Below, one piece after another: positions 1,062-57,898 of a stretch of DNA of 64,000 nt. Made by a program: the position numbers and the translations under genes. A model generated the notes under the pieces. It was not told the DNA's origin and did not search any database. It saw nothing but the letters and a program-made list of their open reading frames with translations. Source of the stretch: Closterium sp. NIES-65 (lineage: Eukaryota; Streptophyta; Zygnematophyceae; Desmidiales; Closteriaceae); the NCBI GenBank assembly GCA_948144175.1, contig CANXME010002579.1, forward strand, positions 1,238,001 to 1,302,000, written 5' to 3'. The stretch's first letter is position 1. The number at the start of each line of letters is the position of its first letter.

Positions 1062-4000
1062 GTAATTGGTAACTGGTGGTGGCAACTTGCAAGCATGCGC
1101 TCGTGTGTGTGCCTCCTCGCTCGTGTGTGTGCCTCCTCGCTCGTGTGTGTGCCTCCTCGCTCGTGTGTGTGCCTCCTCGCTCGTGTGTGTGCCTCCTCGC
1201 TCGTGTGTGTGCCTCCTCGCTCGTGTGTGTGCCTCCTCGCTCGTGTGTGTGCCTCCTCGCTCGTGTGTGTGCCTCCTCGCTCGTGTGTGCGCCTCCTCGC
1301 TCGTGTGTGTGCCTCCTCGCTCGTGTGTGTGCCTCCTCGCTTGTGCTCTTTTCTGGTGCTGCGCCTGTCTCTCTTCGGATGATGATGAAACGAGGCGCAT
1401 GGCAGATCCCAACTCTTTCCCGCAGCGCTGCGCTGCGCTGCGCGTGCCTCTCGTGTTCACCGCATGGCGAGCCAGGCGCAGGCTCACATGAGATGTCACA
1501 CATCTTCTCTTGCCTCCTGACCTTGTGTGCCATGCCATTTGAGAATTCTCAAAAAACATACGCTGGTGTGCCATGTCACATGTGCTCATGACACATGACT
1601 CCTGATGATGACCTGATGAGGTGCACGGCATGGCAGGTCCCCTAACTTCCCCTCCCTTTCCCCTCTCCCTCGCCTCCCCTCCCCCATCCCCAGCTGTGAA
1701 GCCCAGGCAGTAGAAGCAGAGCGCATCACCCAAGGGCAGGCGAACCAGGCGAAGGGGGAGAGCCTCACGCTGAGCGGGCCCCTCCCTCCCCCTCCTCCTC
1801 CCTCTCCCCCTCCCCCTCCTCCCCCCCTCGCGCTCCCGCTCCCTCCCCCACACTCCCATTTCCCCGCCTCCCTCGCCCACCTCCCTCCCAGCCCCCAGCA
1901 GGGAGGCGCAGGCAGTGGAAGCAGAGCGCATCGCCCGAGGCCGTGCAAGCCAAGCCAAGGGGGAGAGCCTGACGCTGAGTGGGAGGGCAGCAGCGGACGG
2001 CAGCAACAGCTGGGAGAGCATCTGCCGCATGATCCGCGAGCAGGAGGCTCGATTCCGGCGCCTCATGGGGCCGCAGCAGCAGCAGGGGGGTGGTGGGGAT
2101 GGGGGGAGGGCGGGCGGAGGGGGGGTTGGTGGGGGAGGGGAGAGGGGCGGAGGGTGCGGAGGAGGTGGAAGGGGAGGAGGGGGAGGAGGGGGAGGGGGGT
2201 CGGGAGCGGTGGGGAGTGGTGGTGTGCGAGGGGGTGTGAGGCTGATGTGTACGTTGGAGGACACGGGGGTGGGGCTGCCAGACGCTGTGTTTGACGCTCT
2301 CGAAAAGCCCTTTCAACCGCTCTCCCTGCCGCTGCAGCAGCGCTTCGCCGCCGTCCCTCTGCTGCTGAACGTCGCTCAGAAGTAAGCCTGTTGTTTTTCG
2401 AGAGCTCTCAAATACCAACCGCTCTCCCTCCCGCTGCAGCAGCAGCGCTTTGGCGCTGTGCCGCTGCTGCTGAATGTTTCTCAAAAGTATGCGGGTTCCC
2501 TCCTTCGCATGTGTGTGTGATTGCTCTCATTAAGACGCCTCAAAAGAACGGTGGGGAGGTCCTGGGGAGGGGTGGGGAGTGGTGGGGAGTGGTGGGCGAG
2601 AGGCAGCCGTTTGCTCATCTACAGCTGCCCGCGCCGGAATCAGCTTCGCCTTTCACGTTATCTCTCATTTGCTCCCTCTGTCAAATCTATACGCCCCATT
2701 CCCCCACCCTCCCCCCCCTTCTCGCTCCTTTCTCTCCCCCCTCTTCTTGCTCCTTTCTCTCCCCCCCTTCTCGCTCCTTTCTCTCCCCCCTCTCCCCTCC
2801 CTTCTCTCTCCTTTCCCTCCCCCCCCCCCCCTCCCTCCTCCCCTTCCTTATCCAGTCTGGTGCAAGCCATGCACGGCGAACTGGTCGTCTACAGCCGCCC
2901 CGGAATCGGCTCAACCTTCACTTTTGATCTCTCGCTTGCTCAGCCACCCACTCTCCCCTCTCGCCCCCTGTGCCATTCCCTTTTTCCATATTCCCCTTCT
3001 CTTCCAGTCTGGTGCAGGCCATGCACGGCCAACTGCTCGTCTACAGCCGCCCTGGCATCGGCTCAACATTCACCTTCCGCCTCTTGCTCGTTGTAACCCC
3101 CTCCTTGCCCCGGAATCGGCTCCGTTTATGATCTCTCACTCGCCCAGCCACCCAACGTTCTCTCCCATGCCTCCCCCCCCTCCCTCCCCCCCCACCAGTC
3201 TAGTGCAGGCCATGCACGGCCAACTGCTCGTCTACAGCCGCCCCGGAATCGGCTCAACATTCACTTTCGACATCTCGCTCGCCCAGCCGCCCACCGGCCC
3301 GGCCTCTAGCGCGCTGCCACGTGTCTTCCACGCGGGCTTCGGGCCAATCCCGGACGAGCAGCAGGCAGAGAGCCTTGCGCTGAGAGGCAAGCTGAGGGGA
3401 TTGAGATGCCTTGCAGTGGACGGTCGACCCGTGAGGCAGCAGGTGGGTTCTGCATAATCCTTTTACATCACTATGTTTAGAGTGGAATGGGATGGGAAAC
3501 AGCAGCAGGCGGAGAGCCTGGCTTTGAGGGGCAAGCAGAGGGGGCTGAGATGCCTGGCAGTGGACGGTCGACCCGTGAGGCAGCAGGTGGGTTCTGGCTG
3601 TATTGGTGTGGTGGGAAGTGAAGGGAGCGGAATGGGGTGGATGAAAGCAGCAGGTGGAGAGAGCCTGGCTCCGAGGGCACAGCTGAGGGGGCTGCCGTGC
3701 CTGGCTCCGAGGGCACAGCTGAGGGGGCTGCCGTGCCTGGCTCCGAGGGCACAGCTGAGGGGGCTGCCGTGCCTGGCTCCGAGGGGACAGCTGAGGGGGC
3801 TGCCGTGCCTGGCTCCGAGGGCACAGCTGAGGGGGCTGCCGTGCCTGGCTCCGAGGGCACAGCTGAGGGGGCTGCCGTGCCTGGCTCCGAGGGGACAGCT
3901 GAGGGGGCTGCCGTGCCTGGCTCCGAGGGGACAGCTGAGGGGGCTGCCGTGCCGTGCCACGTGCATGGCTCGCCTGGTGATTGCCACGTGCATGGCTCGC

Positions 4001-7000
4001 CTGGTGATTGCCACGTGCATGGCTCGCCTGGTGATTGCCACGTGCATGGCTCGCCTGGTGATTGCCACGTGCATGGCTCGCCTGGTGATTGCCACGTGCA
4101 TGGCTCGCCTGGTGATTGCCACGTGCATGGCTCGCCTGGTGATTGCCACGTGCATGGCTCGCCTGGTGATTGCCACGTGCATGGCTCGCCTGGTGATTGC
4201 CACGTGCATGGCTCGCCTGGTGATTGCCACGTGCATGGCTCGCCTGGTGATTGCCACGTGCATGGCTCGCCTGGTGATTGCCACGTGCATGGCTCGCCTG
4301 GTGATTGCCACGTGCATGGCTCGCCTGGTGATTGCCACGTGCATGGCTCGCCTGGTGATTGCCACGTGCATGGCTCGCCTGGTGATTGCCACGTGCATGG
4401 CTCGCCTGGTGATTGCCACGTGCATGGCTCGCCTGGTGATTGCCACGTGCATGGCTCGCCTGGTCTAACCGGGGATCTCTCACAGTCTCTCCGCTGCTGC
4501 CCTGTTGTTCAGAAGTCATCCCTTTTCAACCCCACTTCCACTCTTCTCCCTCCCCCTTCTCCTTCCCTTCCCCTTCCCCCCACCAGGTCCTGGCCACGTG
4601 CATGGCTCGTCTGGGCCTGAAGGAGGATCCGTCAGACAGCGTCTCTGCTGCTGCCCTGGCGCTCAGCACTCATACACCCCTAGCCTGCTTCCCCCCTTTC
4701 CCCTCCCTCCTCCCCCCCCAATTCCCACACTGCCAGATCCTGGCCACGTGCATGGCTCGTCTGGGTCTAAAGGTGGATCTCCCAGACAGCGTCTCTGCTG
4801 CTGCACTGGCTGACAGCAAGCTAATTCCTTATACCCCTGCTTCCTCCGCACCACCAGGTCCTGGCCACGTGCATGGCTCGTCTGGGCCTCAAGGTGGATC
4901 TGTCAGACAGCGTCTCTGCTGCTGCCTTGGCTCTCAGACACGACGTCACCTCTCCTGCTGCCCCAGCTGCTGGTACTGGTGAGTGTGGTGCGGTGCAGTG
5001 CGGTGCGTTGTGTTGTGGAAGCCTTATACTGGTGCAGCACGGTGCGGTGTGTGGTGTGCGGTGTGGTGTGGCATGTTCTTTGACTGGAAGTCTCTCTGCT
5101 GCTGCCCCTGTTGCTGGTGTTGCTGGTGCTGCTGGTGTTGCTTCTGCCGCACAGGACAGCACGTTGGTTGAGTGCCACACACAGCCTGTGCGCCTGCCTG
5201 TGACTTGCTGTGCCTTCCTTTCCCCCCCATCCCCCAGGCATGGCTGTGCATCCCCCAGGCATGGCTGTGCATCCCCCAGGCATGGCTGTGCATCCCCCAG
5301 GCATGGCTGTGCATCCCCCAGGCATGGCTGTGCATCCCCCAGGCATGGCTGTGCATCCCCCAGGCATGGCTGTGCATCCCCCAGGCATGGCTGTGCATCC
5401 CCCAGGCATGGCTGTGCATCCCCCAGGCATGGCTGTGCATCCCCCAGGCATGGCTGTGCATCCCCCAGGCATGGCTGTGCATCCCCCAGGCATGGCTGTG
5501 CATCCCCCAGGCATGGCTGTGCATCCCCCAGGCATGGCTGTGCATCCCCCAGGCATGGCTGTGCATCCCCCAGGCATGGCTGTGCATCCCCCAGGCATGG
5601 CTGTGCATCTCTTGCCAGCTGCACTTCTCCGCTCCCCTCCCTGCACTCAGGCATGGCAGCCCCCCGCAAGAGCCGGTGGGATGACCCCACCAGAGCCGGT
5701 GGGATGTGGTGGTGGAGGACATGGAAAGTGATGGCCATGTGTTTGAAGACGTGATGGCCATCACTACTTCAAAACACTACTCCAAAACACTACTTTATAA
5801 CTCTACTTCAAAACACTACTTCAAAACACGACTTCAAAACACTTCTTCAAAACACAACTTTAAAGCACCACTTCAAAACACTACTTCAAAACACTACTTC
5901 AAAACACTACTTCAAAACACTACTTCAAAACACTACTTCAAAACACTACTTCAAAACACTATTTCAAAACACTACTTTAAAACTCTACTTCAAAACTCTA
6001 CTTCAAAACACTACTTCAAAACACCACTTCAAAACACTACTTCAAAACACTACTTCAAAACACCACTTCAAAACACCACTTCAAAACACCACTTCAAAAC
6101 ACCACTTCAAAACACCACTTCAAAACACCACTTCAAAACACCACTTCAAAACACCACTTCAAAACACCACTTCAAAACACTACTTCAAAACACTACTTCA
6201 AAACACCACTTCAAAACACCACTTCAAATATGTGGCGGTGGAGGACATGGAAAGTGATGGTCCCTGTGTAATGAGTCGAGTTTGGAGTCGACTCAAAACA
6301 TGGCCATCACTACTTCAAAACACTAGTTCCAAGATGTGGTGGTGGAGGACACGGACATTGATGGTCCCACCACAGGCCTGGCGTTGGGCAACGGGTCGCA
6401 TGGCGCTGTGTGTCTCTGCTAACTGCATCCCTCCGTTCCCTCCGCCTCTATGCTCCCCTCATCGCCCTCCGCCTCTATGCTCCCCTCATCGCCCTCCGCC
6501 TCTATGCTCCCCTCATCGCCCTCCGCCTCTATGCTCCCCTCATCGCCCTCCGCCCCTAGCCATGGCTGTAACCTCTCAACGCAAGAGCCGGTGGGATGTG
6601 GTGGTGGTCGATTTGGACAGCGATGGCCCCTTCCACAGGCCTAGCTCTAGGCCGCATGGTGCTGCAACTGAGGGACCTGGAGTCACAGGGGGATTCACTC
6701 CTCTCCTTACTGCACCTCCCTTTGTTCTTCCCCTCCTCCACTCCTCCTCTTCTCACACATTATGCTGCACACACACACACAGAGGCATGACTGTAACCTC
6801 TCAGCGCAAGAGCCGGTGGGATGTGGTGGTGGTCGATCTGGACAGTGACGGTCCCTCCACAGGCCTGGCGTTGGGCCGCATGGTGCTGCGCTTATCTGCC
6901 AACTGCTTCCCTCCTCTCCCTCCGCTCTTATGCTCCCCTCACCACCACCCCCCAGGCATGGCAGGAGCAGCCTCCCGCAAGAGCCGGTGGGATGTGGTGG

Positions 7001-9222: not shown

Positions 9223-9256
<34 letters not shown>

Positions 9257-23444: not shown

Positions 23445-26400
23445 ATGGACGTGGAGGAGGTGATAGAAGTCGAGGAAGTTGTGACCAAAGTGAAGGGCAA
23501 GCAGTCGAAGGCGACGAATGGTCGCCAAGTAACTGGAACGAACGGAACTCGGACGCGACAGGGAAAGGCGATGAATCGATGCAGTGTGACTAAATCGAAG
23601 GGAGAAAGCAAGAATGTGAAGGAAGAGATTGTGACTGAACCGAAGGGCCGCGGCAGCAGGCGCGCCAAGGCTGAGGATGATGCCGTCGAAGAGAAGGGCG
23701 CCGTGAAACGCGCGAAGGAAAATGTTGTGGTGGGAGAAAAGGGTGGCGGCAAACGCTCAAAAGAGAGCACCGCGGTCGAGGAAAACGGCGTCGTGAAAAA
23801 CGTAACGGAAAACGGCGTTGTAGGAGAAAAGGGCGGGGGAAAACGTTCGAAGGAGTTCACCGCGGTGGAAGAGAAAACAAGGACAAAGCGCGCCAAGGTG
23901 AACAACGGCCGCAGCGTCAGTCGTGTGGAGGCTCCACGTCAGCCCAAGGCAGAGAAAGGGGGGAAGGGAAAGCCTCCACGTCAGCCCAAGGAAGAGAAGG
24001 GGGCGAACGGAAGGGCTTCAGGTCAGCTCAAGGGAGCGGAAAAAGAAGCGAAGAAGGCGCCTGGGAAGGCGAGGAAGCGCGGCAAGGCTCCAGCGATCGA
24101 CGACGACATGATCCAAGTGAAGCAGGCTCCGCTCGCCGACTCAGGTGGGATGCAGGCTCTGCTCGTGAATTCAAGTGCGACGTAGACTTCGCTGATCAAT
24201 AGACGTACGCGTTGCAGGCTCTGACTCCCGCATTTCCTCTCATATTAGCTTATTAAGTCATCACTTGTATCACCACTCTATCCTCCCTCCTTCCGCGAAC
24301 TGCCTCTGCCCTCCATCCGATCTGTGCAGAGGAAGCTGCAATCGTGCTCACGCACCCGTCGGATCCAGCAGCCGCAGCCGCGGCGGCGGCGGAGAAGAAG
24401 ACGCCGGTGCGGCAGCTGCTGGACTTCGTGTTTCACGACGCGGACGGCGCGCTCATGCCGCTCGACAGCTTCGACGCTCTGGCGGCGCGCGGGGAAGGAC
24501 TCTTTGCGACAGCCGTCATTCTTCCCGAGACCGCCGCGCTGCGCCATATGGAGGTGAGGCGATCGTCCGCCGCCCTGCGCCGTATCGAGGGAACATGAGC
24601 GCCCGCACCCTGCGCTGTCGAGGTGGTCAGTCTTGCGGCGTACCTTTTGTTTTTGTTTTCTCCCCGTGGCCCTCACTCTGTGCCATATAGATGAAGATAA
24701 GTGTAAGCCACCCTGCTCTGTACCTTCAAGTGTCGCGTTTGAGACACATGTTGACCTGGTGTTGCTGTTCGTTGCCCCGTGCTCTGTTACTCGGTAACCA
24801 GGGTTACAGGTGCGAGGCGTTCGGGCCCATCGACGGGTGGTACATCGACGGTTACGAGAAGGCGAACACAGCGGCGCGCATCATGATCACCACGGACGCT
24901 GCCACGTACGTCTGCTGCCGCCCCGCCGCCAAGCAGAAGAAAGACTTCACCCCGCTTCAGGTAAACGCTTCACTCAGCTCCAGATACTGTGCGACTTTTG
25001 AGGCGCCTCAAAAGTCGTCAGGCAGAAGAAAGAATTAACCCCGCTTCAGGTAAACGCTTCACTGAGCTCCAGGTATTGTGCGTGGATGGGGAACGTGAGT
25101 GTGGTGTGGGGGCCAGCTTAGAGACGCCGTAAAAAACTTCTCAAAACATGTTATTTCTTCACGATCCAGGAGACGCTCACACGTTCCTCTACTTCAGACG
25201 CTCCTCCCATTCCTGGACGTTCCTCGTTCCTTTCACCTTCCCCGCCCCTCTTCTCTGAACACGACAAGGCCATTCTGTGCCTGGAGGTATTCAGGGCCTT
25301 TCCAAGCCGGGCGGGGGCGAGCCCACCCTCTCCCTGCCAAAGGTGGTGGCGCGTGCTTCAAGCTCTTACCCCGTTCCTCCCCATTCCCGTTTCCCTCCCC
25401 CTTCCAAACAGGACAAGGCCAATCTGTGCGTGGAGGTTTTCAGAGCCCTTTCCAAGCCGGACGGGGGCGACCCTACCATTTCCCTCCCAGAGGTGGTGGC
25501 GCGCGTGTCGAGGGCGCTGGGGCGGCCGTGCAGGGACGACCTGGTGGCTGCACATGCGTTTGTGGCGCAGCAGCTATGCGGACTGGACGAGGACGCGGAT
25601 GAAGACGACCAGCTCTTCTCAGGGCTGCCTGCGCTAGAGTGAGTCCGTCTGCCTGCGTGTGTGCCCCGCTTCATGAGGTTGTTACTTGATTTTGGGCGGG
25701 TCAAGACAATACAGCTACTGGAGGTGCATGCGTGTGTGGCGCAGCAGCTGTGCGGGCTGGACGAGGACGCGGATGAGGACGACCGGCTGTTCTCTGGGCT
25801 GCCTGCGCTAGAGTGAGTTTGTGTGCCCTGCATGTGTCTGCATGTGGGGACGTTGATTTGCTGGGTCAACTTAGTGGGCAGCAACTGGTGGGCGTTGCAC
25901 GCGTTTGTGGTGCAGCAGCTGTGCGGGCTGGACGAAGACGCGGATGAAGACGACTAGCTCTTCTCAGGGCTGCTTGCGCTCGAGTGAGTCTGTGTGTGCG
26001 TGAGTGATCGAGCGTTTGTGTGCCACTTCCTGTGGTAAAATGCTCAATTGACTTCCCAGCAGCTGTGCGGTCTGGACGAGGATGCGGATGGGGACGGCCA
26101 GCTGTTCTGATCGCTGCCTGCACTCGAGTGCGTTTGTCCTTGGGTGTCTCTGTGTGCAACTGTGAGTCGCTTCACTTGTTGATTTGATTCATTGGGTCAA
26201 ATTAAGGCAGCAGTTGGTGGAGGCCCATGCGCTTGTGGCGCAGAAGTTGTGTGAGCTGAAATAGAAGGGAGTGAGACAGACAGCCCTCCGGAGCATAGTG
26301 GCAGCAAGGCAGCTCACAGCTTTCCCTGAATCTTCTATTCCCACTTTGCCTTCCATGACCTCGAAAAGGTCTCTGAAGGAAGAGAAAGTCAAACAAGCAG

Positions 26401-35400: not shown

Positions 35401-37671
35401 TCCCCTCCCCTCCCCTCTCCTCCCCTCCCCTCCCCTCCCCTCCCCTCCTCTCCCCTCCCTTCCTTCTTCCCAGTATTCTTCGGAGCCCTCCTCCTGGTTC
35501 CAGAGGAGCATCAGAGCCCAGCAAGCCAGGCTACTGGACCACACGTGCAAGCGCATGAACGAACTCAACCTCAAACGCTGCCAACACATCCCCAGGCGCC
35601 CAGGGGCGGACTGGCGGGACCTGCCGGATATTAAGGTACGATTATGAAGCACTGTACGACCCACACTGCTCTTGAGTCAACTCTAAAGCAGAACTACTGG
35701 ATATCAAGGTACGATCATGAAGCAATGTACGACCCACACTCAGGCTCAGCTCAACCTCAACCACAAAGGACCTACACAAACCTGGTTGGGGTCGATCCCC
35801 TCCTTAGCCCATCGTGTAAAGAGTGAATTTTTTAGACGTCTCAAAAAATCACTCTTTACACATGTACGTCACCTACACTCAGGCTCAGCTCAACCTCAAC
35901 CTCAACCACGAAGGACTTCGAACCTGGTTGAGGTCGATCCCCTCCTTGGCCCATCCCTTTTCATTTCGCCCTCTTCGCTCTCTTGTTTTCTGGATCGACC
36001 CTTCTTGTCATGAGCCCGTACGGCAGGACTGGAGGAATCCCTCTAGGGCTTTTGATGTGCCTCAAAATTCGTATCTATGCCCGCAATTTGTTTGTTACCC
36101 ACCTCAGAAGTTGACAAGCCCTCACGAAAGCCGTTCGCTTATCTGATGTTGCTTTTGAGAATTCTCGAGAGCAACAGCAACATCCTGTTCCGTTGAACCA
36201 CAGGTCCGCTTATTCAATGGGTGCGAAGCAGACCTGGTCCCTTGGCTATTTTGAGACGTCTCAAAACATCACTTTTATCACGTATCAACAGCAACATCCC
36301 GTTCCTTTGAACCACAGGTCCGCTTATTCAATGGGTGCGAAGCAGACCTGGTCTCTTGGCGCCTGCCCAACTCCATGCAGCACCACAACAACTGGAAGGG
36401 GCTGTTTGGCCAGCTTTACAGTTCCAAAACACTTTCTTGTATACCCCAAACCCCCTGTTCCTCACCAGGTGCGGCTGTCCGATGGGCGTGAGACAGATTT
36501 GGTCCCCTGGTGCCTACCCAACACCATGGAGCGCCACAACAACTGGAAGGGGCTGTTTGGGCAGCTCACTTTCACACCCGTAACCTGACCTCTCCTTGGT
36601 ATCCCTTCCTTTCCCTCATTTTCATCCACAGGTGCGGCTGTCGGACGGCCGTGAGGCAGATTTGGTCCCCTGGTGCCTACCCAACACCATGGAGCGGCAC
36701 AATAACTGGAAGGGGTTGTTTGGGCGGCTGGACTGGGCAGGCAACTTCCCCACGTCTGTGACGGACCCCCAGCCAATGGGGAAAGTGGGCATGTGCTTTC
36801 ACCCCGAGCAGGACCGCATTGTCAGCGTGCGCGAGTGTGCGCGATCGCAGGTAAGGGAGGGGACGTGTGACAAGGGTTGTGGTGTTCTGGGATGTCCCCA
36901 ACTTCAAGATTTTAGTGTGGGATTTTTTGAGATTTCACAAAAAAGCTCTGGGATGTCCCAATCTTCAAGATCATAGTGGGGGATTGGTGTGGGTGAGAGC
37001 CTGATGAATCAAGGGGTGACTGGGCGGGCAACTTTCCCACGTCTGTGACGGACCCCCAGCCCATGGGGAAAGTGGGCATGTGCTTTCACTCCGGTTGGTG
37101 GAGAGTTCTTTCTTCATAGGGTGAAGACTTTCCTTTTCACCAGTCAGCTCTTTCTTGCTTTGATTGCCTTATTCCTGCTTCTACCCAATGCTCTCACAAT
37201 TACCCTCCCCCCCAGTCCCGTTTACCTTGCGCTCACAACGCCTTGGTGGCCTTCCCTTAACTGGTAGAACCGTGTTGCCTGAATGTGACCGTGGCACCGC
37301 TTTGCAAGCATCATTCACGCCAGGCTCCACAAGATAGTCCGACCATGTTCGCCCCACTCCTCCTTCCTGTGTTAATCTTTCAGGGTCTCCCCGACTGGTA
37401 CTACTTCACGGGCAACATCCGGGCCAAGCACCGTCATCTCAACTAACACTTTCCCTTTCTTTGTGTTCCCAATGTGCCACAAATCTCTCAGGGCTTCCCC
37501 GACTGGTACCGCTTTGCTGGCAACATTCAGGCCAAGCATCGCCAGATCGGCAACGCTGTCCCTCCACCTCTTGCCCTGGCTCTGGGCTTGCAGCTCAGGA
37601 AGGCTCTCTTGGAGACGAGGAAGATGAATGGAGCAGAAGTGGAGAGAGAGGGTAAGGATGAGGCAAAGTAA
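23445..37671 (+). CDS. MET1: DNA (cytosine-5)-methyltransferase, MET1/DNMT1 type, complete
   Basis: A maintenance CpG methyltransferase acting in the nucleus. Exons: 23445-24144, 24330-24553, 24802-24960, 25412-25638, 26492-26846, 27304-29036, 29516-30074, 30515-30730, 31210-31715, 32381-32528, 33397-33594, 34238-34597, 35474-35635, 36632-36850, 37492-37671 (TAA). All phases fit, giving about 1,981 residues against roughly 1,530 in Arabidopsis; the extra is charged or Gly/Ala-rich filler. Order: basic repetitive tail (1-233), RFD1 (about 250-437), RFD2 (about 556-860), acidic stretch, BAH1 (about 1015-1135), BAH2 (about 1136-1390), catalytic domain (about 1497-1960). Motifs: [14 protein letters not shown] (I), [15 protein letters not shown] (IV, split between exons 10 and 11), [10 protein letters not shown] (VI), [11 protein letters not shown] (VIII), [13 protein letters not shown] (IX-X). 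No CXXC finger, as in plants. ATG at 23445 has GCAATGG context. Confidence 0.95.
24992..25017. repeat. perfect 26-bp junction palindrome, GCGC core
   Basis: CGACTTTTGAGGCGCCTCAAAAGTCG contains the shared core TTTTGAGGCGCCTCAAAA. It separates the real end of MET1 exon 3 (CCCCGCTTCAGGTAAACGC) from a second copy of that exon-donor segment. Confidence 0.9.
25255..26130 (+). repeat. MET1 exon 4 copies
   Basis: A diverged, frame-broken copy of the exon 4 start (GACAAGGCCATTCTGTGCCT) precedes the real exon. Three copies of its 3' end (encoding [14 protein letters not shown]...FSGLPALE with the donor) follow at about 25735-25816, 25900-25985 and 26060-26130. Confidence 0.85.
26225..26500 (+). repeat. 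MET1 exon 5 start copies
   Basis: Two extra copies encoding versions of SLKEExxKxAAVRSI lie at about 26260-26320 and 26365-26430 before the real exon 5 at 26492. Confidence 0.75.
26925..27215 (+). repeat. chimeric copy joining MET1 exons 5 and 6, plus an exon 6 start copy
   Basis: About 26935-27035 carries the exon 5 stretch encoding KINEKE fused without the intron to an exon 6 stretch (DLPRR...DDQL...VPLELLPML). A copy of the exon 6 start ([13 protein letters not shown], after CACAG) lies near 27162-27210. Confidence 0.7.
29041..29390 (+). repeat. copies of the BAH1 exon end with a 20-bp repeat
   Basis: Two copies of the exon 6 end (encoding [19 protein letters not shown]) lie near 29115-29178 and 29318-29380. 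Between them about five 20-bp units (TAAGCTGCCAGCAGATGCGG) derive from the donor site. Confidence 0.85.
31042..31069. repeat. perfect 28-bp junction palindrome, AATT core
   Basis: The palindrome has the shared core TTTTGAGAATTCTCAAAA with arms TTTAC/GTAAA. It lies between two copies of the segment CACGTGCCATCAGAAGTAT in a MET1 intron. Confidence 0.92.
31716..31945 (+). repeat. copies of the MET1 exon 9 end
   Basis: Two extra copies encoding [17 protein letters not shown], each followed by GTGAG, lie near 31765-31816 and 31880-31941. Confidence 0.85.
32293..32342. repeat. (AT/GT)n microsatellite
   Basis: ATATACATATATGTATATATGT-like alternating sequence, close to the tract at 9186-9260. Confidence 0.85.
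32590..32970 (+). repeat. three extra copies of the catalytic PCQ exon end
   Basis: Copies of the exon 10 end encoding [13 protein letters not shown] or a close variant, each followed by a GTAAG or GTACA donor, lie at about 32608-32668, 32745-32800 and 32886-32967. Confidence 0.85.
33220..33790 (+). repeat. MET1 exon 11 copies
   Basis: Two copies of the exon start containing CCATGGAGCAAGGTGCAGTG (about 33222-33262) or a near variant (about 33300-33335) precede the real exon 33397-33594. A copy of its 3' half ([18 protein letters not shown]) follows at about 33640-33780. A TTTTTTAGTCGACTCAAAAA palindrome (33265-33284) separates the first two. Confidence 0.85.
34075..34775 (+). repeat. MET1 exon 12 copies
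   Basis: A diverged copy of the exon start, with its own acceptor, lies at 34081-34185. Copies of its end (encoding [11 protein letters not shown] plus donor) lie at about 34700-34770. Confidence 0.82.
35225..36000 (+). repeat. MET1 exon 13 copies and CTCCC array
   Basis: A diverged exon copy ([20 protein letters not shown]) lies at 35233-35345. A pentanucleotide CCCCT array (35353-35460) leads to the real exon. Its donor region is repeated near 35700, and a further pair of about 100-bp copies flanks the palindrome at 35821-35854. Confidence 0.85.
36147..36176. repeat. junction palindrome, AATT core
   Basis: A 30-bp near-perfect palindrome with arms TGTTGC/GCAACA around TTTTGAGAATTCTC stands at the left edge of a tandem copy block of MET1 exon 14. 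Confidence 0.85.
36177..36595 (+). repeat. MET1 exon 14 start copies
   Basis: Three copies precede the real exon at 36632: about 36205-36245, 36320-36420 and 36470-36575, encoding variants of [18 protein letters not shown]. The palindrome TTTTGAGACGTCTCAAAA (36249-36266) lies between the first two. Confidence 0.87.
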
Positions 37672-37910
37672 TGGAATGTGAACACATAATGCCTCTGGCA
37701 CTGGCTCTGGGCTTTCAGCTGCGGAAAGCTCTCCTGGAAACGAAAGAGATGGATGGAGCAGAGGTGGAGGGAGAGAGAAACGATGAAGCATAGTGACTTT
37801 TGAGTCAGATTAAAAATTACCTCTGGCCCAGACTCTGGGGTTCGAGTTGAGGAAAGCTCTCCTGGAGAAGAGGATGGATGGAGCACAGGTGGAGGGAGAG
37901 AGTAATGACA
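37380..37910 (+). repeat. MET1 last-exon copies
   Basis: A copy of the exon 15 start ([17 protein letters not shown]) precedes the real exon. Two copies of its end ([16 protein letters not shown]) follow the stop codon at about 37690-37792 and 37825-37900. Confidence 0.85.
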
Positions 37911-38560
37911 ATGAAAAGATTGGAATTTGAAGGATAAGAAAGCATGGTAATATATGTTGTGTGTTTGTTGTGTTTTTTACATCTGTGTGTAGGTTGTGTT
38001 AGAGGCAAGAAATATTATGCAGCAGTATTTCAACCAGATTTCTGCAGCAGTATCAACCTTAGCACATGCCATCTCAACAACAATTGCCGGGACGGAAATG
38101 ACATCTGCTGTAGTCTGCACTACACACACCACCTCGTCTTTCCTTCCGCCCTCCCACCACCAACACAGCTCTCCAACTTTGCCTGACCTTCAGCACTGGC
38201 CTTCACAAGTCCGCAAGACCCCATTCTCTGTGAAACCCATGCCTCGGTAAATGCTTGTCCATGTGTGAGCTTTTCCACCTTTGCAAACCTCCATGCACCT
38301 CTGAAGCCTCACCATGTCTGCAAACACCCATGAGTCTGCAAAGCTTCACGCCTCTGCCAAGCTCTTCCTCTCCTCCTCGGGAATAGCCAACCTTTGAGGT
38401 GCCTCAAAAGACGTATCTGCAATGCGAACCCCCCCTGCAACTGTACAGCTTCACGCCTCTGTCAACTCTTCCTCTCTTCCTCAGAAACAGCCAACCATTG
38501 GGGCGCCTCAAAACACGTATCTGCAATCCCCCCCTGCACTTGTAAAGCTTCACGCCTCTG
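37672..38560. other. intergenic region between two convergent genes
   Basis: This 889-bp stretch holds tail copies of MET1 (to about 37900), then about 400 bp with no coding signal. From about 38340 it holds two copies of the last 60 bp of the cofactor C gene, separated by TTTGAGGTGCCTCAAAA (38393-38409) and a related half palindrome (38497-38512). Confidence 0.7.
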
Positions 38561-39769
38561 TCAACTCTTCCTCTCTTCCTCAGGAATAACCGACCAATTC
38601 GGCGACGACACCGCACGCAGCCAACTGAAATCGTCCACGAGGGCCCACAGCCCACCATCCACCGCCAGGTCAGCATCCTTAAAATCCGCCTCCAACCCGT
38701 CATACTCCCTACTATAAGGCGCGAATCTGACACCCTTAGAGTGCTCTATAAGCGGCCTGCTGCGCGTGCGGACATAGAAATCGGCGCGCTCTGTCTGGTG
38801 TATCCTCAGCTGATGGCTCGCGACGGCTACAGTGCTGCCTGACGCGTCCTCCACATGGCAGGCTCCCGACACTGGGCAGAGGATGACGTGGCAGTCGCGC
38901 ACGTGGCGGAGGAAGACGGCGGAGAGGACACCGCGGACAGACACGTGGCAGTGGGAGAGGTGCTGCAGCGTGAGCTCGCCGCGTCTGTGCTGCTCTGGCG
39001 AGATTTGAATGTGCTCGTGGGAGCGGTGGGAGATGGAGAGGGACGGGTGCGCGGAGCTGGTTGGGGGGATGGAAGATGGAGCCTCGGCGGACGCTCCTGC
39101 TGTTTTGGCTGCTCCAACTTCTCCTGCTGCTCCCAGCGCTGCTGCTCCGGATTCTCCGCCTGCTGCGGGTGCTCCTGCTGCCGCCGCCGCTTCTCCTGAC
39201 GCTGCTGCTCCCGATACGGCTCCTCCTTATACCCCTGTTGGCTCAACATCGGAGGCCACCAATCCCGTTCTCCTCGGGTCGCCCTCCTGCTCCACCTGGC
39301 AACTACCCACTGGCTGCAGCGACTGCGTCGGTTGCTCGAGAGATTTCTGAGAGGACGAGGCGTCTTTATTTTCTGAAGAAGGTTTCTTTTGCCCTCTTGA
39401 GGAAAAGGCGAATCGTTTCTTGGGTTTCGAGGCGGATCGGGCAGTTTCCAGGTTGGCGCGAAGCGCGGCCACGCGTGAAGTCATCTGCTCCACGTCACGC
39501 CGCGGGACCGACGGCGCGAAATGCGCTACTAGGACTTCCACCGCGCGAAGCGCTGCCACCGCCGCTTGATCCGCGTTCAATCCGGACCGTTGATTGCCTC
39601 CCGCAGCGTCCACCTGTTCACTACTTTCCTCGCAGTTGATCCCCGACTGTGCAGATTCGGCAACGGAACCGGAATCTCTGGAACTTAAAGCTCGGATCGC
39701 GGCTTCCAGCGCGTCGCATTTCTCGCGAAAGGCTAGGAAGACGGACAGCTGGTCTTGCTCCTCGTCCAT
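38561..39769 (-). CDS. TBCC: tubulin-folding cofactor C (TBCC), single exon with an in-frame stop
   Basis: TBCC is the GTPase-activating factor of the tubulin-folding complex. The first ATG is at 39769 (MDEEQDQLSVF). The N-terminal part ends in KPKKRFAFSSR, as in plant cofactor C. Then comes an Ala/Gly-rich linker, then the C-terminal C-CAP/TBCC domain: VFLRHVRDCHVILCPVSG, VASHQLRIHQTERADFY, RPLIEHSKGVRFAPY, WALVDDFSWLRAVSSPNW, EEERKS and TGA. The arginine of QLRIH, the expected catalytic finger, is present. One TAA (39227-39229) interrupts an otherwise continuous frame inside the linker. GGG/GTATAAG there could be a donor, but a purine-rich 'intron' would be unlike others here. Alternatives are a recent null allele or a sequence error. 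Confidence 0.88.
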
Positions 39770-41784: not shown

Positions 41785-41792
41785 GTGGTGGT

Positions 41793-42133
41793 CATAACTG
41801 TCCTGTTCATGATGGGATGAAGTTGCTTGGTTGTTGATGATGCTACTGAGGTGAGTAATTCATGGTTGTTGCACACTGGTGTATTCACGATAACCATTAT
41901 CAATGTCAATTATCACGTAACTAAAGTTTACAATCAAGGAGCACGCACAAGTACAATTAGGACAGAGGATGATGGATACATGGGTCATCATCACACAAAC
42001 TTCCAGAAACTTCCAAAAGAACGTTCTTAGATAGAAAAGGTGGCAGGAACACTACCGCTGCTGCTGGAAAGTGGGCAATGGGATCATCCCCCAAGGGGTC
42101 AGCAAACTTGACCTATCCGTTCAGCGCGTTTGC
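41793..42133. other. no gene seen
   Basis: About 340 bp between the hAT-like element and the stop codon of the secreted-protein gene. It probably holds that gene's 3' UTR and polyadenylation region. No repeats or motifs stand out. Confidence 0.4.
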
Positions 42134-42982: not shown

Positions 42983-43235
42983 TTTGCAGGAGAAGAGGAT
43001 AATGTCGTAGCTTAGTAAGCTGTTGTACGGGTAGTAGTCGTGGTTAGTCTAGTAGATCTAGTGATCTAATGGATTGAAGATTGATGAAGGCGAAGATTGA
43101 AGGCGTGATTTACCAGCAACGAAGAAGCCTGCTAAATAGCAAACCGAAGGGCGAGGGCATTCCATGACGGATAGACTGGGCCCAAAATTGAGGGAAGGTG
43201 CGCCACGGCTTGCGGCAATGTGATTGGTTGTGGAT

Positions 43236-43435
43236 CACGATGGCTTACTATCGTAGGACCAATGAACAAGTAAGTTCCACGATGGCTTATCGTAGGACCA
43301 ATGAACAAAAGTTCCGTGATGGCTTATCGTAGGACCAATGAAATCTTAGGTTCCGCGATGACTTAGGCCCAATGAATTCTTAGGTTCCGCGATGTCTAAT
43401 CGTAGAACCAATGAAATCGTAGGTTCCGTGATGAC
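43236..43435 (-). promoter_or_regulatory. CCAAT-box tandem repeats upstream of the secreted-protein gene
   Basis: Five diverged copies of a 30-45-bp unit containing CGATGGCTTATCGTAGGACC followed by AATGAA lie 250-450 bp upstream of the start codon. Each carries CCAAT on the plus strand; another CCAAT on the minus strand is near 43220. This resembles a multi-site NF-Y type promoter. Confidence 0.5.
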
Positions 43436-44094
43436 GTACAAATTCGCGGGAGTGAGCGAAAACGGGGTTCAGTTGTGCTGCTGAATTGTGAAACCGTCCT
43501 TGCCCGAACGCGTCAGGACGCGGTAAAAGTGCTCGATCGGGGGGAGATCGATCCGGTCACCGCACTCAAAGCCTGCGTAATACGTACAATAGGTATAGAA
43601 ACGTTTACAACCGTGGTAAAAAAACAATCCTGAGGCGATCAATTTTCCACTTTTACCGCGTCCTCAGACCTGAAATCACGTCTCCCGTGAGATGCGGCGA
43701 CAGAAGTGGACATCCAGAACCAGCCCATTATAAAAATTGCACTACTAGCGACTGATCATCGTAATTTATACAAAAAGAAAACGAACAAACAGGGTTAACT
43801 AGCAAAGCAGCCCCAAAACCCTTATGCGTGGCTCCTCTGACATTCAGTGATACCTACATAAGAGAACACCTTCCACTGGAGAATAAGGAAATCTAGGACT
43901 GGTACGATAATAATAACATGTGAGCCATTTAATACTTTGGTTACCTAACCAACCAACCATCTCTGCTAGCAGCATTCATGTACAAACGCCCCTGCAGCGA
44001 AACCATTCTCTGGGTTAAGCATGACGTGACATTCCCCGATGCGCTTCACACTGGCCAGTTTTGCCACCCCACCATGACAAAAAAGGAAACTTTC
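43436..44094. other. intergenic region with a long inverted repeat
   Basis: AGGACGCGGTAAAAGTG (43515-43531) recurs in perfect inverted orientation at 43648-43664, giving a 17-bp stem with a 116-bp loop. No gene is visible. It could be a small foldback element or a regulatory structure. Confidence 0.55.
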
Positions 44095-44451
44095 AAGGTA
44101 GGCCTTTGGCAACGGCAGAGAGGGCGCAGAGAGAGCAGCAGAGGATGGTCTCGGAGGGCAGATGCAACGGCAGCAGTGACACTCGTTTGAGTCGACTCAA
44201 AGGAAACTTCTAAGGAAGGCCTTTGGCAATGGCGGTGAGGGCGAGGTGTAGGGAGAGCAGCAGAGGATGGTCTCAGAGGGCAGATGCAATGGCAGAGTTG
44301 GCACTCGTTGAATCGATCCTAAGGAAGCTTCTAAGGAAGGCCTTTGGCAACGGCGGTGAGGGCGAGGTGTAGGGAGAGCAGCAGAGGATGGTCTCGGAGG
44401 GCAGATGCAATGGCAGAAATGGCACTCGTCGAATCGATTCTAAGGAAGCTT
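44095..44451 (-). repeat. three extra copies of the gamma-tubulin complex protein last exon
   Basis: About 120-bp copies encoding ASALRDHPLLLSLHLALTAV or parts of it lie at about 44340-44440, 44215-44320 and 44095-44180, downstream of the real stop. TTTGAGTCGACTCAAA (44186-44201) sits at one junction. Confidence 0.85.
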
Positions 44452-53400: not shown

Positions 53401-56400
53401 AGGGAACGGGTGGAATGGGAAGGATAGAACGAGAAGGGAGAGAACGAGGGAAATTCTTGACTTCAAGTTGATGCATTTGTGAAGCAATCTCTGCATACCA
53501 CTGTATACCTCTTCATACCACTCTCCTCATCATACCTCTGCATGCATCACGCCACATGCATAGCCCTGCAAACCACTGCATACTGCTCCATACCAATGCA
53601 TACAGCTGTATATATCATTGCATACCGATGTAAACCATTGCATTTTGCAGTAAATAATTTCATACCACTGTGAACCATTGCATACCGTTGTAGATCATTG
53701 CATACCACTGAATATCATTGCAAACCGCTGCACAACATTGCATACCGCTGCATACCACTGCATACCATTGCATACCACTGCATACCATTGCATACCGCTG
53801 CATACCACTGCATACCACTCTATGCGTACCGCTGCATGCAGCATGTCAAGAACCTCTGTGGATCCCCATCCTTCGTCCTCCACCCCTCTCACAATGGGCG
53901 TCAGCACCCTCACCCCGTCCACTACGGGCTGTGGGGCATGGCAGCACACACGGAGGGAAGAATCGGAGGGGGGGGGGAGCATTGGGTTTCGAGTCGACTC
54001 AGAAGCTCTTTGCCCCTCTTACGGTGGGCGTCAGCACCCTCACTCCGTCCGAAACGGGCTGTGGGGCAGAACTCAGAGGGACGAATTGGGGGGGGGAAGG
54101 GGCATGGGTTTTCGAGTTAACTTAAAAATCCTCCGCCACTTTTACGGTTGGCGTGAGCACCCTCACTCTGGCTGCTACGGGCTGTTGGGCAGCACACAGA
54201 GGGGAGTTCGCGGGGAAGGGGGGAGGGGGGCGTTGCCAAGCAGCAATGCATGGAGTGAGAGATAGGTAACACCCAGTCACACTCTTACATACTTGCTGCC
54301 CCCTCACTCTGTGGCACTTCATGACGGAAATTTGTTGAAACCAACACTATATACCAATTGCACCACTCCATACCTGAATGCACCGCTTGAGCTCCAGCAG
54401 CCTCATGCCATGGCTCTCACACTGACTCTCCAGCTTGCACAACAGCATGGCTGTGTTCTGGTAGACACATGGGAGGGCGGTGTGCGGTGGCATGGGTTGG
54501 TGGCATGGGGTGGTGGCATGGGGTGGTGGCATGGGGTAGCATAGTTTTAGTCGAGCAGCCTCATGCTGTGTGCCATGGCTCTCACACTGGCTCTCCAGCT
54601 TGCACAACAGCATGGCTGTGCTCTGGTAGACACATGGGAGGGGTGGTGTGCGGTGGCGTGGGTGGGCATGGGGTGGCACAGCGTAGCATGGGATAGCATG
54701 GGGTGGGATGCGGTGGGATGCGGTAACATAGGTTGGCAAATTCAAAAAGCATAGATATACGCAACGAAAGTGAAGGATGGTCTGTGCGACTAGACTCTCC
54801 TGCTTGCACACAAGCATGGCCGCACGCATGGCAAGATTGGCAGCAAGGCAGTATGGCAGCATGGCAGCATGGCAGCATGGCAGCATGGCAGCATGGCAGC
54901 ATGGCTGCGTGGCAGCAGGGCAGCATGGCAGCATGGCAGCATGACAGCATGGCAGCATGGCAGCATGGCAGCATGGCAGCATGGCAGCATGACAGCATGG
55001 CAGCATGGCAGCATGGCAGCATGGCAGCATGGCAGCATGGCAGCATGGCAGCATGACAGCATGGCAGCATGGCAGCATGGCAGCATGGCAGCATGGCAGC
55101 AAGGCAGCATGGCAGCATGGCAGCATGGCAGCATGGCAGCATGGCAGCAAGGCAGCATGGCAGCAAGGCAGCATGGCAGCATGGCAGCATGGCTGCGTGG
55201 CAGCATGGCAGCATGGCTGCAAAAGAGCATGCAAACGGCTTGACACTGACAAACGATGGGCTTACATAAAGGAACACACGTGTGGCCTGGGCGAGGGCCT
55301 GAAGGCACTGGCTCGTGTGCTGCTGCTCTAGTGAGAGACAGGGCAGGCACCTCTGGCTGGCACTAACGTGTGCATCCATCCCAAAGCTCACGGCTTGTAC
55401 ACATTAACGGCCTTACAAAACTCACATCAAGGAACACGCGGATGGCCTGGGCGAGGGCCTGCACGCACTGGCTCATGTGCTGCTGCTCCAGAGGCAGGCC
55501 GGGCGGCTCTGGCAGCAACGTGTGGAGCCTGCCGGCGTGGGTGCAGGCACGCGATGACTCGTGGCGCTCCGTGAAGTGGCGGAGGAGGGCGGTGTGGGTG
55601 ATCAAAGGCAACAGTGTTTGTGCGTCCACCTGAAAGGGAGGGAGAGGAGAAGGAGGCAGAAAGTGCTCAGCCTCGTGGCACTGATGACTCGTGGCGATGA
55701 TGACTCGTGGCGATGATGACTCATGGCGATGATGACTAGTGGCGATGATGACTCGTGGCGATGATGACTCGTGGCGATGATGACTCGTGGCGATGATGAC
55801 TCGTGGCGATGATGACTCGTGGCGATGTGTGAAATGTTAGAAGAGGGCAGTGTGACTTATGGGGCGCCTCAAAAGGGAGGGAGAGGGGAAGGAGGCAGAA
55901 AGTTCTCAGCATGTGGAGATGTGTGAAATGTCAGAAGAGGGCGGTGTGGGTGATTAAAGGCAGCAGTGCATGTGTGCCTGCCAGCCTGGTGGAGAGAGGT
56001 CAAGGAGCGGGAGACAGAGGGGGGGAAGGGGAAAGGAGGAAATTGGGGAGCAAATCACAGAGCGTTCCGGAGGCTGCTTTCGACCTGAGCGTAAGGGGTT
56101 GAAGATTGCGGAACTGCGGAGTTGAGTCAAGTGGTACAGTAGAGTAGCACGCATGTGAGCCACATGCACGCATGTGAGCCACACGCACGCGTGTGAGCAC
56201 AGCACAGTCACATGCACCATGCATGCACACACGCCATACGTACGTGCACATGCACCATATATACGCAGACGCCATACACGCAAATGCACCATACATGTGT
56301 ACACGCCATACATGCACACACGCACGCACGCACTCGGAACATTGCAGTCTGAGGCGATTGGGTGGTTCCGAAAAGATGCTGGCACGCGCCCTGTGCGCAT

Positions 56401-57898
56401 GTAAGGCGCATACACAGGCACATGCACAGGCACATGCACAGGCACATGCACAGGCACATGCACAGGCACATGCACAGGCACATGCGCAGGCACATGCGCA
56501 GGCACATGCGCAGGCACATGCGCAGGCACATGCGCAGGCACATGCGCAGGCACATGCGCAGGCACATTCGCAGGCACATGCGCAGGCACATGCGCAGGCA
56601 CATGCGCAGGCACATGCGCAGGCACATGCGCAGGCACATACACAGGCGCAAGCGCAGACACAAGCCTCATTCATGCACGCACGCCCGCACGCACGCACTC
56701 GAACATTGTAGTCCAACTGGTGAAGAGGTTCCGAGACGATGCTGGCACGTGCGCGCCGCACGCCCCTCTCGCTCGCCAGACTCACTGCCACCAGCGACGA
56801 GGGGAAGCCCCTCAGCGCCGCCAGCAGCGCCACGCATGCTGCTGCCTCCTGAGGGGGGGGGATCGGCGATGGGTGGGGGGAGAAAGGAAATGGGGAGCAG
56901 GGGGAGAGCAGGGGAAGGAACGCGCACGGGTGAATGCCTGCCGCACGCACGCCCCTCTCGCTTGCCAGGCGGATTCCCACGAGCAAGGAGGGGACTCCCC
57001 TCAGCGCCGCCAGCACCGCCACGCATGCTGCTGTCTCCTGAGGGGGTTGGGGGGAGAATGTCCGGAGGGTAGGATGGGGGGGAAAGGGGGAGAATGGGGG
57101 GAGGGTAGAACGGCGGGGTCTGAGAGTAAAGAATGGAGGGGAGAGACTAGAAGGCCCTAAGCGCATCTAGCAGCGCCGTCTACAGCGCGACGCGTGCTGC
57201 TGTCGCGTGCTGCTGCTCGCGCGAGTGGGATAGGCGGTTCTGAGCGGAGAGAAAAGAGAAGAGAAGAGGGCGGCGACGAGAGACAGCCTTTTGAGGCGCC
57301 TCAAAAGAGGGCGGCGACGAGCGCCAAGTCCCTCAGCTCTGGTACCGCAGCAATGTTGCCGCCACTACCGTACTGCTGGCTATGTAGTGGGCGGGGACTT
57401 TAACTTGGACGTTGGGTGAGTGGTTGGTTTGTTCTTAACTAGCTTTCTGTTTAATGATTAGCTGTTTCTTCGAGAGAGTACAAGCGACAGCAGGCGTGGA
57501 GCCCTTGTTGAGTGAAATCTGTTTAGCTGTTTTAGGGTTTCACAGGAGAAGACCCGTCACGCACGATGACGGGAATTGCAAATGCGAAATCCACAGCATT
57601 GACCCTGGAGAACTAAACCAGCAGTTGGCGGGAAGAAAAAAACAAGTACTCGTATACACGGCGAATGCGAGCCCGGATTCACCTGCTCCTCGACCGTCAG
57701 CGAGCCGAGTAGAGGAAAGTCGTCGACACCCTGAGCAGACACAATGACCGCCATGGCCACCGTCATCACAGAAGGAGAGGGTGGATTATTGCCGCGACAC
57801 ACGGCAAAAACACAACGAGAGGGATCCGATCCACAATGCTCCAAATTCGCTTTTTGAAGGACCAAGAGAAATCTCTCCTTTACTGCGTTATCCGACAT
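44452..57898 (-). CDS. gamma-tubulin complex protein (GCP family)
   Basis: A Spc97/Spc98-family subunit of the microtubule nucleation complex. Phase-consistent exons on minus: 55629-55426, 54457-54374, 53928-53830, about 53330-53255, 52775-52388, 51432-51313, 50239-50156, 49928-49854, 49483-48968, 48197-48072, 47300-47193, 46400-46338, 45085-44769, 44581-44452 (TAG). Family matches: EAAACVALLAALRGFPSSLV (about 56.8 kb), LQSACAPYLHLL, WMQEGRLDDDIHSEFFI, FVVRCDAVPVLFQSVADDVL, LSDFMALAGEELCKPARRAS, PMAANDPNCDRL, GWEAIYIDYQ joined to APWPVSAVVPATALQGYNR and LFRFLLAARR, then VHWLRHRMACAVTAI. GCP subtype is unclear, possibly GCP4-6. A Gly/Gln/Thr-rich insert lies in 48968-49483. Exons in 45.1-46.3 kb and before 55.6 kb are not fully resolved. 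The ATG exon 57898-57683 (MSDNAVKERFLLVLQKANLE) is only a candidate first exon. Confidence 0.82.
46760..46945. repeat. 12-bp ACACATGCACGC microsatellite
   Basis: About 15 units in an intron of the gamma-tubulin complex gene, followed by partial copies of the VHWLRHRMACAV exon (about 46945-47150). Confidence 0.9.
47490..47835. repeat. GGCAGC/GGCAGT hexanucleotide array
   Basis: About 55 six-base units with AGGGGC interruptions fill an intron. Long apparent Ala, Gly/Ser or Leu/Pro frames across it are artefacts of the repeat. Confidence 0.9.
48072..48730 (-). repeat. five tandem copies of the YNRLFRFLLA exon
   Basis: Copies spaced about 130 bp apart each have an AG acceptor and encode PWPVSAVVPPSALQGYNRLF or variants. 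Only the 3'-most (48197-48072) runs on to a donor in frame. Confidence 0.85.
51700..52450 (-). repeat. tandem copies of the DDVLATGQLVHALR exon end
   Basis: Five or so copies of the sequence encoding DDVLATGQLVHALREHGYLK, interleaved with CACACACCCA-rich pieces, lie downstream of the real exon 52388-52775. Confidence 0.85.
53500..53830. repeat. 10-bp CATACCACTG array
   Basis: About 30 diverged units abut the donor site GTACGC of exon 53928-53830, from which the unit may derive. Confidence 0.88.
53985..54200 (-). repeat. exon copies separated by two junction palindromes
   Basis: Two copies of the exon encoding VRVLTPIV (about 54020-54070, 54140-54190) lie upstream on minus of the real exon. 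GAGTCGACTC (53991-54000) and the diverged TTTTCGAGTTAACTTAAAAA (54109-54128) mark the joins. Confidence 0.8.
54843..55215. repeat. 8-bp AGCATGGC array
   Basis: About 45 units in an intron of the gamma-tubulin complex gene. The repeat is open in several frames, so long apparent reading frames there are not genes. Confidence 0.93.
55677..55830. repeat. 16-bp GATGATGACTCGTGGC array
   Basis: Nine to ten units derived from the neighbouring exon (CGATGACTCGTGGCGCTCCG at about 55551) follow that exon's upstream side. This is another exon-derived minisatellite. Confidence 0.88.
56411..56650. repeat. 12-bp ACATGCGCAGGC array
   Basis: Twenty units in an intron, between copies of the segment encoding RARASIFSEP. 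Confidence 0.92.
57288..57307. repeat. perfect 20-bp junction palindrome, GCGC core
   Basis: CTTTTGAGGCGCCTCAAAAG is flanked on both sides by AGAGGGCGGCGACGAG, so it sits exactly between two direct copies. Confidence 0.9.

Follow-up and report, generated by a model that had tools for sequence, protein, structure and literature searches.

We analyzed 64,000 nt of the genome of Closterium sp. NIES-65 (contig CANXME010002579.1, positions 1,238,001 to 1,302,000; this whole stretch is referred to as the window), which contains a family of short palindromes of the form TTTTGAG-NNNN-CTCAAAA. The family is spread over the whole genome. Its centre is fixed and its outer ends are variable, the two arms of a site match each other, the four core bases are mostly self-complementary, and the site usually lies between the two copies of a short direct repeat. 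For one site there is a near-identical copy of the surrounding region, and it carries neither the palindrome nor the duplication. We tentatively propose that every site was left by a single insertion, in which both 3′ ends of a staggered break were extended on a single template and then joined head to head.

Fixed centres and variable outer ends

With up to two mismatches over the 14 fixed bases, the window contains 23 sites, whereas 100 dinucleotide shuffles gave 0.12 on average and never more than 2. A preliminary description of this DNA had reported such sites to recur across the window, and the counts bear this out. Its coordinates are correct to ∼8 bp, and among the diverged sites that it named, the one at 33058 is only a poor match. 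With AT runs excluded, the window's 10 strongest palindromes (score ≥8) include 7 of this family; the remaining ones lie at 5742, 32903 and 62714.

The preliminary description called for a search of the whole genome. In the assembly (874 Mb, 2,400 contigs), exact sites number 30,327, arrays included, compared with 4 for the reversed pattern and 42 when an 8-nt spacer replaces the 4-nt one. Four self-complementary cores, TCGA (13,080), GCGC (5,851), ACGT (5,047) and AATT (2,601), make up 26,579 of the exact sites (87.6%), and other cores the remaining 3,748. Among exact sites in sequence not selected by core (n = 43 after collapsing), 39 have a self-complementary core, 4 are one transition away, and none is mixed.

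The arms were said in the preliminary description to match the local sequence. This did not hold up: they mostly belong to families common to unlinked loci. The 17-base arm GACTCAAAAGTCACCTC has 2,870 copies in the genome (control, 0), and from 20 of these loci the arm could be extended to GACTCAAAAGTCACCTCGTTACCATGGCACACG. Sites with an ACGT core have CACTTCTTCANACACRTGGC-like arms, and AATT sites several other arms. Arms reach about 45 nt, and the longest symmetric ones measure 24–27 bp (window 35814–35861; L029:540). A match of at least 3 bases between the arms beyond the 18-mer was seen in 49% of 76 sites, versus 16% when different sites were paired and 32% when the paired sites had the same core.

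The outer end of the arm differs between loci and also between the two sides of one insert. At L058 and L049 there is practically no left arm, and these end in ..GTC at the centre. The pattern GTCACCTCGTTACCATGGCAC, which represents an arm without the centre, has 46 copies in the genome; among the 20 read (at most 15 distinct loci), the centre adjoins in 19, in some with one base changed. The exception is L080, where TTTTGA is joined directly to GTCACC. A still longer arm pattern has 4 copies, all of them palindromic inserts (L100 lies in a near-duplicate of L095). The sites are thus constant at the centre and free at the outer ends, whereas the opposite holds for a DNA transposon.

Some inserts have two or three centres (L091, L094, L095 and L101). 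The 47-, 42- and 29-nt units found between neighbouring centres fold as hairpins, but since units between equal centres have complementary ends by construction, the folding was not counted as evidence for a small RNA. Searches of five loci against Rfam returned weak matches only, to microRNA-type and similar hairpins, all under the gathering scores. An apparent resemblance of the arms to a 24-nt leader plus start codon (ACCATGG) plays no part in the argument.

Duplication joins and an empty site

Repeat statistics were drawn from ∼264 kb of continuous sequence and from small loci around listed sites, mostly on the first contigs of the listings, a non-random sample. The two flanks can be aligned to each other at 63 of 71 non-array exact sites; for mismatched site pairs the figure is 0.7%, and for random positions it is 22.8%, the last value being high because the genome is full of tandem repeats. 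Both repeat ends lie within 25 bp of the palindrome at 37 of the 71 sites, versus 0.07% of mismatched pairs and 7.7% of random positions. Comparison with other palindromes gave a similar picture: in the same 264 kb, flank repeats accompany 24 of 26 family palindromes and 8 of 54 others, and tight joins are found at 16 of 26 and 0 of 54 (arm ≥6), respectively. Viral contigs served as a foreign control (80 of 120 fetched stretches used), with self-complementary cores in 0/80 and flank repeats in 0/78.

These data agree with the preliminary description in that the palindromes sit at duplication joins far more often than expected by chance. As a general mark of such joins they serve less well. Among short-gap duplications outside arrays, 21 of 88 (about one-quarter) carry the motif at up to two mismatches, compared with 1.8% of random segments; the fractions are 9/31 in the window, 10/48 on contig C6 and 2/9 in the other stretch of C2281, the contig of the window. 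The remaining 67 joins lack it. Thus, a palindrome usually implies a duplication, yet most duplications have no palindrome.

The anatomy of the sites was tabulated for 88 exact sites outside arrays, after six loci recognised as repeats of others had been omitted. An abutting direct repeat is present at 65 of them, with a median length of 47 bp (quartiles 30 and 67, range 15–187). The repeat copies are 95% identical at the median and fully identical at 11 sites, and the sequence between them is 18–86 bp long (median 31). Clean examples are C6:109299, where a 60-bp repeat (60/60 identical) encloses the insert ACTTTTGAGTCGACTCAAAAGTC, and C6:123337, where the repeat is identical at 23/23 positions.

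Window positions 30500–38700 have a second copy on contig C2325 (C2325:472017–481093), 96–98% identical, and part of this region has a third copy on the same contig as the window (C2281:1309602–1312198); the copies are 96–99% identical and useful for dating insertions. At 35670, C2325 has a single repeat copy and no insert. The gap is one block of 73 bases, which is the length of the 50-bp repeat copy and the 23-bp intervening sequence taken together. Two left diagnostic bases of the single copy agree with the right window copy, and a later base agrees with the left one. This order is opposite to the one that recombination between the repeats would produce, so C2325 most likely keeps the pre-insertion state. 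The insert and the duplication at 35670 most likely arose together.

Palindromes 35161, 35829, 36050, 36153 and 36249 are common to the window and C2325, and only the right half of palindrome 35037 falls within the stretch compared. In the one region compared, no palindrome without duplication was seen in near-identical copies. Elsewhere, the paralogue compared with C6:72528 for an empty site was too diverged, and no long second copy was reported for C6:100001–110000. The 114-bp unit around 36249 occurs twice in the window and three times on C2325, indicating that a palindrome scar can expand afterwards into a tandem array. By eye, ∼5 of the 48 bases of palindrome 35814–35861 differ between the window and C2325, more than in the flanks, and palindromes may mutate faster than their surroundings.

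Two other explanations can be weighed at this point. The palindromes might have been there first, with replication slippage or breakage duplicating the flanks around them. Palindromes are fragile, and palindrome-bearing units do expand into arrays, as at C6:108027, at C10:378176 and in the 36249 unit. But none of the 54 other palindromes shows tight flank repeats, C2325 lacks both insert and duplication at 35670, and thousands of identical seeds would still require an origin, which makes this order of events scarcely plausible. The second explanation is a sequencing or assembly artefact, since palindromes together with duplications are typical of chimeric reads. Given that the repeat copies have diverged (median identity 95%), that some cores differ by single transitions (4/43) and that the five palindromes named above recur in the second copy of the region, the chance of an artefact is virtually negligible.

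Within the window, direct repeats no more than 59 bp apart flank 20 of the 24 tabulated sites (35161 weakly), and none was found at 1537, 29450, 36050 and 36153. The joins are listed here, each with identical over aligned bases of the two copies.

2314..2492, join: copies 2314–2387 and 2416–2492; palindrome TTTCGAGAGCTCTCAAAT at 2396–2413; 63/74
6204..6368, join: copies 6204–6264 and 6308–6368; palindrome 6281–6298, core TCGA; 52/61; extra sequence on the left resembles arm family CTCGACTCATTACAC
24927..25082, join: copies 24927–24993 and 25016–25082; 26-bp perfect palindrome 24992–25017, core GCGC; 60/67
30983..31134, join: copies 30983–31038 and 31079–31134; 28-bp perfect palindrome 31042–31069, core AATT; 51/56
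33238..33328, join: copies 33238–33262 and 33301–33328; palindrome 33266–33283, core TCGA, right arm ATCGACTTACTACACATG; 25/25
34859..35112, two successive joins with the middle copy in common: palindromes 34934–34951 (TCGA) and 35037–35054 (ACGT); 50/54 and 47/53
35618..35740, join: copies 35618–35667 and 35691–35740; decayed palindrome 35670–35687 (TCTTGAGTCAACTCTAAA); 44/50
35725..35955, join: copies 35725–35813 and 35862–35955; long palindrome 35814–35861, core ACGT, 24-bp arms with two mismatches; 80/86
36172..36360, join: copies 36172–36246 and 36286–36360; perfect 18-mer 36249–36266 (ACGT), right arm CATCACTTTTATCACGTAT; 72/75
36886..36985, join: copies 36886–36924 and 36947–36985; decayed palindrome 36925–36942; 34/39
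37692..37908, join: copies 37692–37783 and 37820–37908; decayed palindrome 37798–37815; 77/88; duplicated 3′ end of the DNA methyltransferase gene
38336..38586, three copies, two GCGC-type joins: at 38392 and about 38497, with the same kind of insert; 48/55 and 68/72
44086..44306, join: copies 44086–44184 and 44203–44306; palindrome 44185–44202 (TCGA); 87/98; further copies extend to a 4-unit array reaching 44544
53883..54228, three copies: joins at 53987 (TCGA) and 54110 (TTAA); 80/96 and 75/89
55819..55948, join: copies 55819–55854 and 55913–55948; half-decayed palindrome 55857–55874 (GCGC); 33/36
57266..57321, join: copies 57266–57280 and 57307–57321; 20-bp perfect palindrome 57288–57307 (GCGC); 15/15

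Many of these joins lie in a DNMT1-type cytosine methyltransferase gene (26851–37902), which has a replication foci domain, a methylase match and a BAH match below its cut-off. The 3′ end of this gene is present about three times (37566–37902). A Copia-type reverse transcriptase (RVT_2) is encoded on the minus strand at 13604–14692, and by eye the rest of the element seems to extend through the neighbouring minus-strand open reading frames as far as about 22.3 kb.

Several other repeats were noted. The window has a 22-bp unit repeated 66 times without differences (9906–11361) and a 13-bp minisatellite, CACTACTTCAAAA, with ∼36 copies (5762–6228). The latter matches an arm of an ACGT site (TCAAAACACTACTTCAAA) at 18/18 positions, so a palindrome arm may have seeded it. 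Arrays of 27–42-bp units that contain a palindrome or an arm occur at C6:108027–108155, C43:1010347–1011055, C21:1006431–1006868 and C10:378176–378319, and are probably minisatellites born from single insertions. Two dispersed repeats lie at L011, one of 318 bp with more than 30 matches (L011:2093–2410) and one of 138 bp whose ends are inverted repeats of ∼35 bp (L011:1390–1529).

A possible mechanism and its rivals

Breaks with protruding 3′ ends are established to yield small tandem duplications by fill-in and end joining (PMC8355091; PMC5730883). In the insertion that we tentatively propose, a chromosomal break would leave ends staggered by roughly 15–120 nt, and the stagger would become the tandem duplication during repair. 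Before joining, both 3′ ends would be extended by about 9–45 nt on the same short template. Copying would start at variable places, perhaps aided by a few matching bases, and would stop at one fixed end of the template. The two extended ends, by then identical, would be joined head to head to give TTTTGAG-N2′N1′N1N2-CTCAAAA. Because both ends would be copied from one template and joined in this way, the core would be self-complementary whatever N1N2 is, and rarely mixed. The mixed core of TC and GC (TC|GC) is found at 132 genome sites, versus ∼5,050 predicted from independent arms by arithmetic from the genome counts.

We infer the nature of the template, the enzyme, the identity of the extended ends and the joining at the centre. 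The template would most likely be a short RNA with the 5′ end NNCUCAAAA, used by a reverse transcriptase that carries its own RNA and is telomerase- or retroelement-like. Several template variants would set the core and the arm family, with GACUCAAAA, GCCUCAAAA, GUCUCAAAA and UUCUCAAAA as predicted RNA 5′ ends. An RNA is favoured by the constant last base of the copied strand, as expected of a copy that runs off an RNA 5′ end.

A number of observations weigh against this proposal. When cores are read at up to two mismatches (n = 79, three stretches), 61 are self-complementary, 17 are other and 1 is mixed. Many of the mixed-core sites (20 of the 132 were fetched, with 4 duplicate pairs) have ordinary arms and may be mutants, so they do not discriminate between blunt and sticky joining. 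The arm GTCACC is found at both TCGA and GCGC centres (L239); N1N2 is therefore not strictly tied to the arm. Long arms are rare, with 2,870 copies of the 17-base arm versus 13,080 TCGA sites of two arms each, which suits a short accessible template and not a conventional retroelement RNA. Between the copied stretch and the repeat, 31 of 65 rows share at least one base, 16 share none and 18 have extra bases; because the count leaves out rows with a gap of more than 6 bases and takes in arrays as well as nested sites, the evidence from these overlaps for priming by short matches is weak. The rule used detects no abutting repeat at 23 of the 88 sites, at some of them (e.g. L087, L095 and L101) because the insert is nested. 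The empty site is a single example that offers three diagnostic bases, and the window palindrome there has decayed by two bases. Finally, no source gene, RNA or enzyme was found: 19 of 20 inspected long arms are already at a centre, and the genome's reverse transcriptases were not searched. No longer source element is present among the 20 of 46 long-arm copies read or the 4 copies of the longest pattern. Scanning up to 9 kb upstream of half motifs for a second repeat copy revealed no long element; every row obtained was an array, an old duplication or a probable decayed insert (C6 local 52501).

The main rival to an RNA template is hairpin-ended DNA. A polymerase-theta-like enzyme, or a reverse transcriptase acting on its own cDNA, would copy along one arm of a DNA hairpin, round its loopless end and back along the other arm, and the product would be captured at a staggered break. 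This would account at once for the matching arms, for the one core per insert and for the self-complementary cores, and the multi-centre inserts resemble repeated template switching at TTTT, AC or TT. However, starts on the far arm should yield inserts without a centre, whereas 19 of 20 long-arm loci have one, and the cell would need a continuing source of hairpin-ended DNA whose tip stays constant. A hairpin tip as the template thus seems unlikely to us, though it deserves to be kept in mind.

Ready-made palindromic fragments are another conceivable source. Small double-stranded pieces, their outer ends trimmed first, would be captured at breaks by end joining, which would explain why the outer ends are independent and why some joins show short matches. 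If trimming ran past the centre, a single arm should often be left. Yet unpartnered half motifs, 42 of the 148 in 264 kb, are near the background of roughly 33 scaled from the window expectation, and the centre is kept in 19 of 20 long-arm loci. We consider capture of such fragments decidedly unlikely.

Extension of both ends on a short template might make the system an ultra-minimal mobile element, a possibility that we raise with some reserve. A machine acting throughout the genome, either a reverse transcriptase or another polymerase, with a short fixed-end template would add the same 9–45 nt to both staggered ends and join them head to head. The constant part would be only NNCTCAAAA and its mirror image, and the outcome would be tens of thousands of scars, duplication of gene pieces and seeding of minisatellites. 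If this is true, such insertions would form a kind outside DNA transposons and retrotransposons, with a fixed centre, free ends and a target duplicated over tens of bases, and would indicate an unknown polymerase with a built-in template. They would also provide a natural, sequence-tagged record of staggered breaks becoming tandem duplications, with thousands of events of different ages in one genome, and a path from a single insertion to duplicated gene pieces and minisatellite arrays, as in the 114-bp unit.

Comparison with known systems

Small tandem duplications in rice were reportedly described by Vaughn and Bennetzen in 2014. In the literature searched, which left most subscription papers and all preprints outside its scope, no description was recognised as a system of the present kind, and four 18-mers and two 14-mers of the motif had no occurrence.

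Miniature inverted-repeat transposable elements (MITEs) and foldback elements resemble the sites described here in their inverted repeats, high copy number, target duplication and lack of coding capacity. The palindromes could accordingly be internally deleted remnants of a cut-and-paste element of this type, and the units of 47, 42 and 29 nt with complementary ends between neighbouring centres would fit such an origin. In contrast to these elements, the fixed part is the centre and the outer ends vary, with the arms of one family ending at different places on each side; the duplication varies from 15 to 187 bp (quartiles 30 and 67, 65 sites) instead of having one characteristic length; the constant part is ∼18 bp; and none of the stretches searched contained a longer member. 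A related autonomous element was likewise not seen in the 264 kb sampled or among the inspected arm matches, no genome-wide search for transposases having been made. Descent from such an element is very unlikely. The preliminary description had suggested either a tiny foldback element or a repair process leaving a primed hairpin, which was the right shortlist, though neither the fixed ends nor the single duplication length of a foldback element was found. It had also stated that the sites fit neither a target-site duplication nor a known MITE; the repeats are in fact laid out like a long, variable target-site duplication.

Target-primed retroelements (LINE/SINE and Penelope-like elements, including twin priming) are alike in their truncated copies and in their variable target duplications, which are also found here, and the inversion that arises when both ends prime is reminiscent of our sites. 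LINE and SINE copies keep a conserved RNA 3′ end at the target and are truncated at the 5′ side. Here, by contrast, the sites contain nothing of the template's ends but the presumed 5′ one; conservation is at the inner centre, and truncation is on the opposite, outer side. Moreover, only 18–86 bp lie between the repeat copies, and no full-length copy was found.

Small tandem duplications formed during break repair, by CST/Pol alpha-primase and non-homologous end joining (NHEJ), are similar in their geometry: as described for breaks with protruding 3′ ends (PMC8355091; PMC5730883), tens of bases are duplicated in one repair event and the length is set by the distance between opposed nicks, as appears to be the case here. 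A duplication that is absent from a near-identical copy, as expected of one event, was found at 35670, in one case. The blunt joins or non-recurrent filler expected of break repair were not found; instead, the join contains a constant palindrome with few cores and arm families, thousands of times over. Break repair of this kind accounts for the duplication, not for a palindrome that recurs. Templated insertions by polymerase theta are alike in their short inserts, short matches at joins and repeated switching. Those insertions mostly map near the break or are scattered elsewhere (PMC5730883), whereas here the same template families recur throughout the genome.

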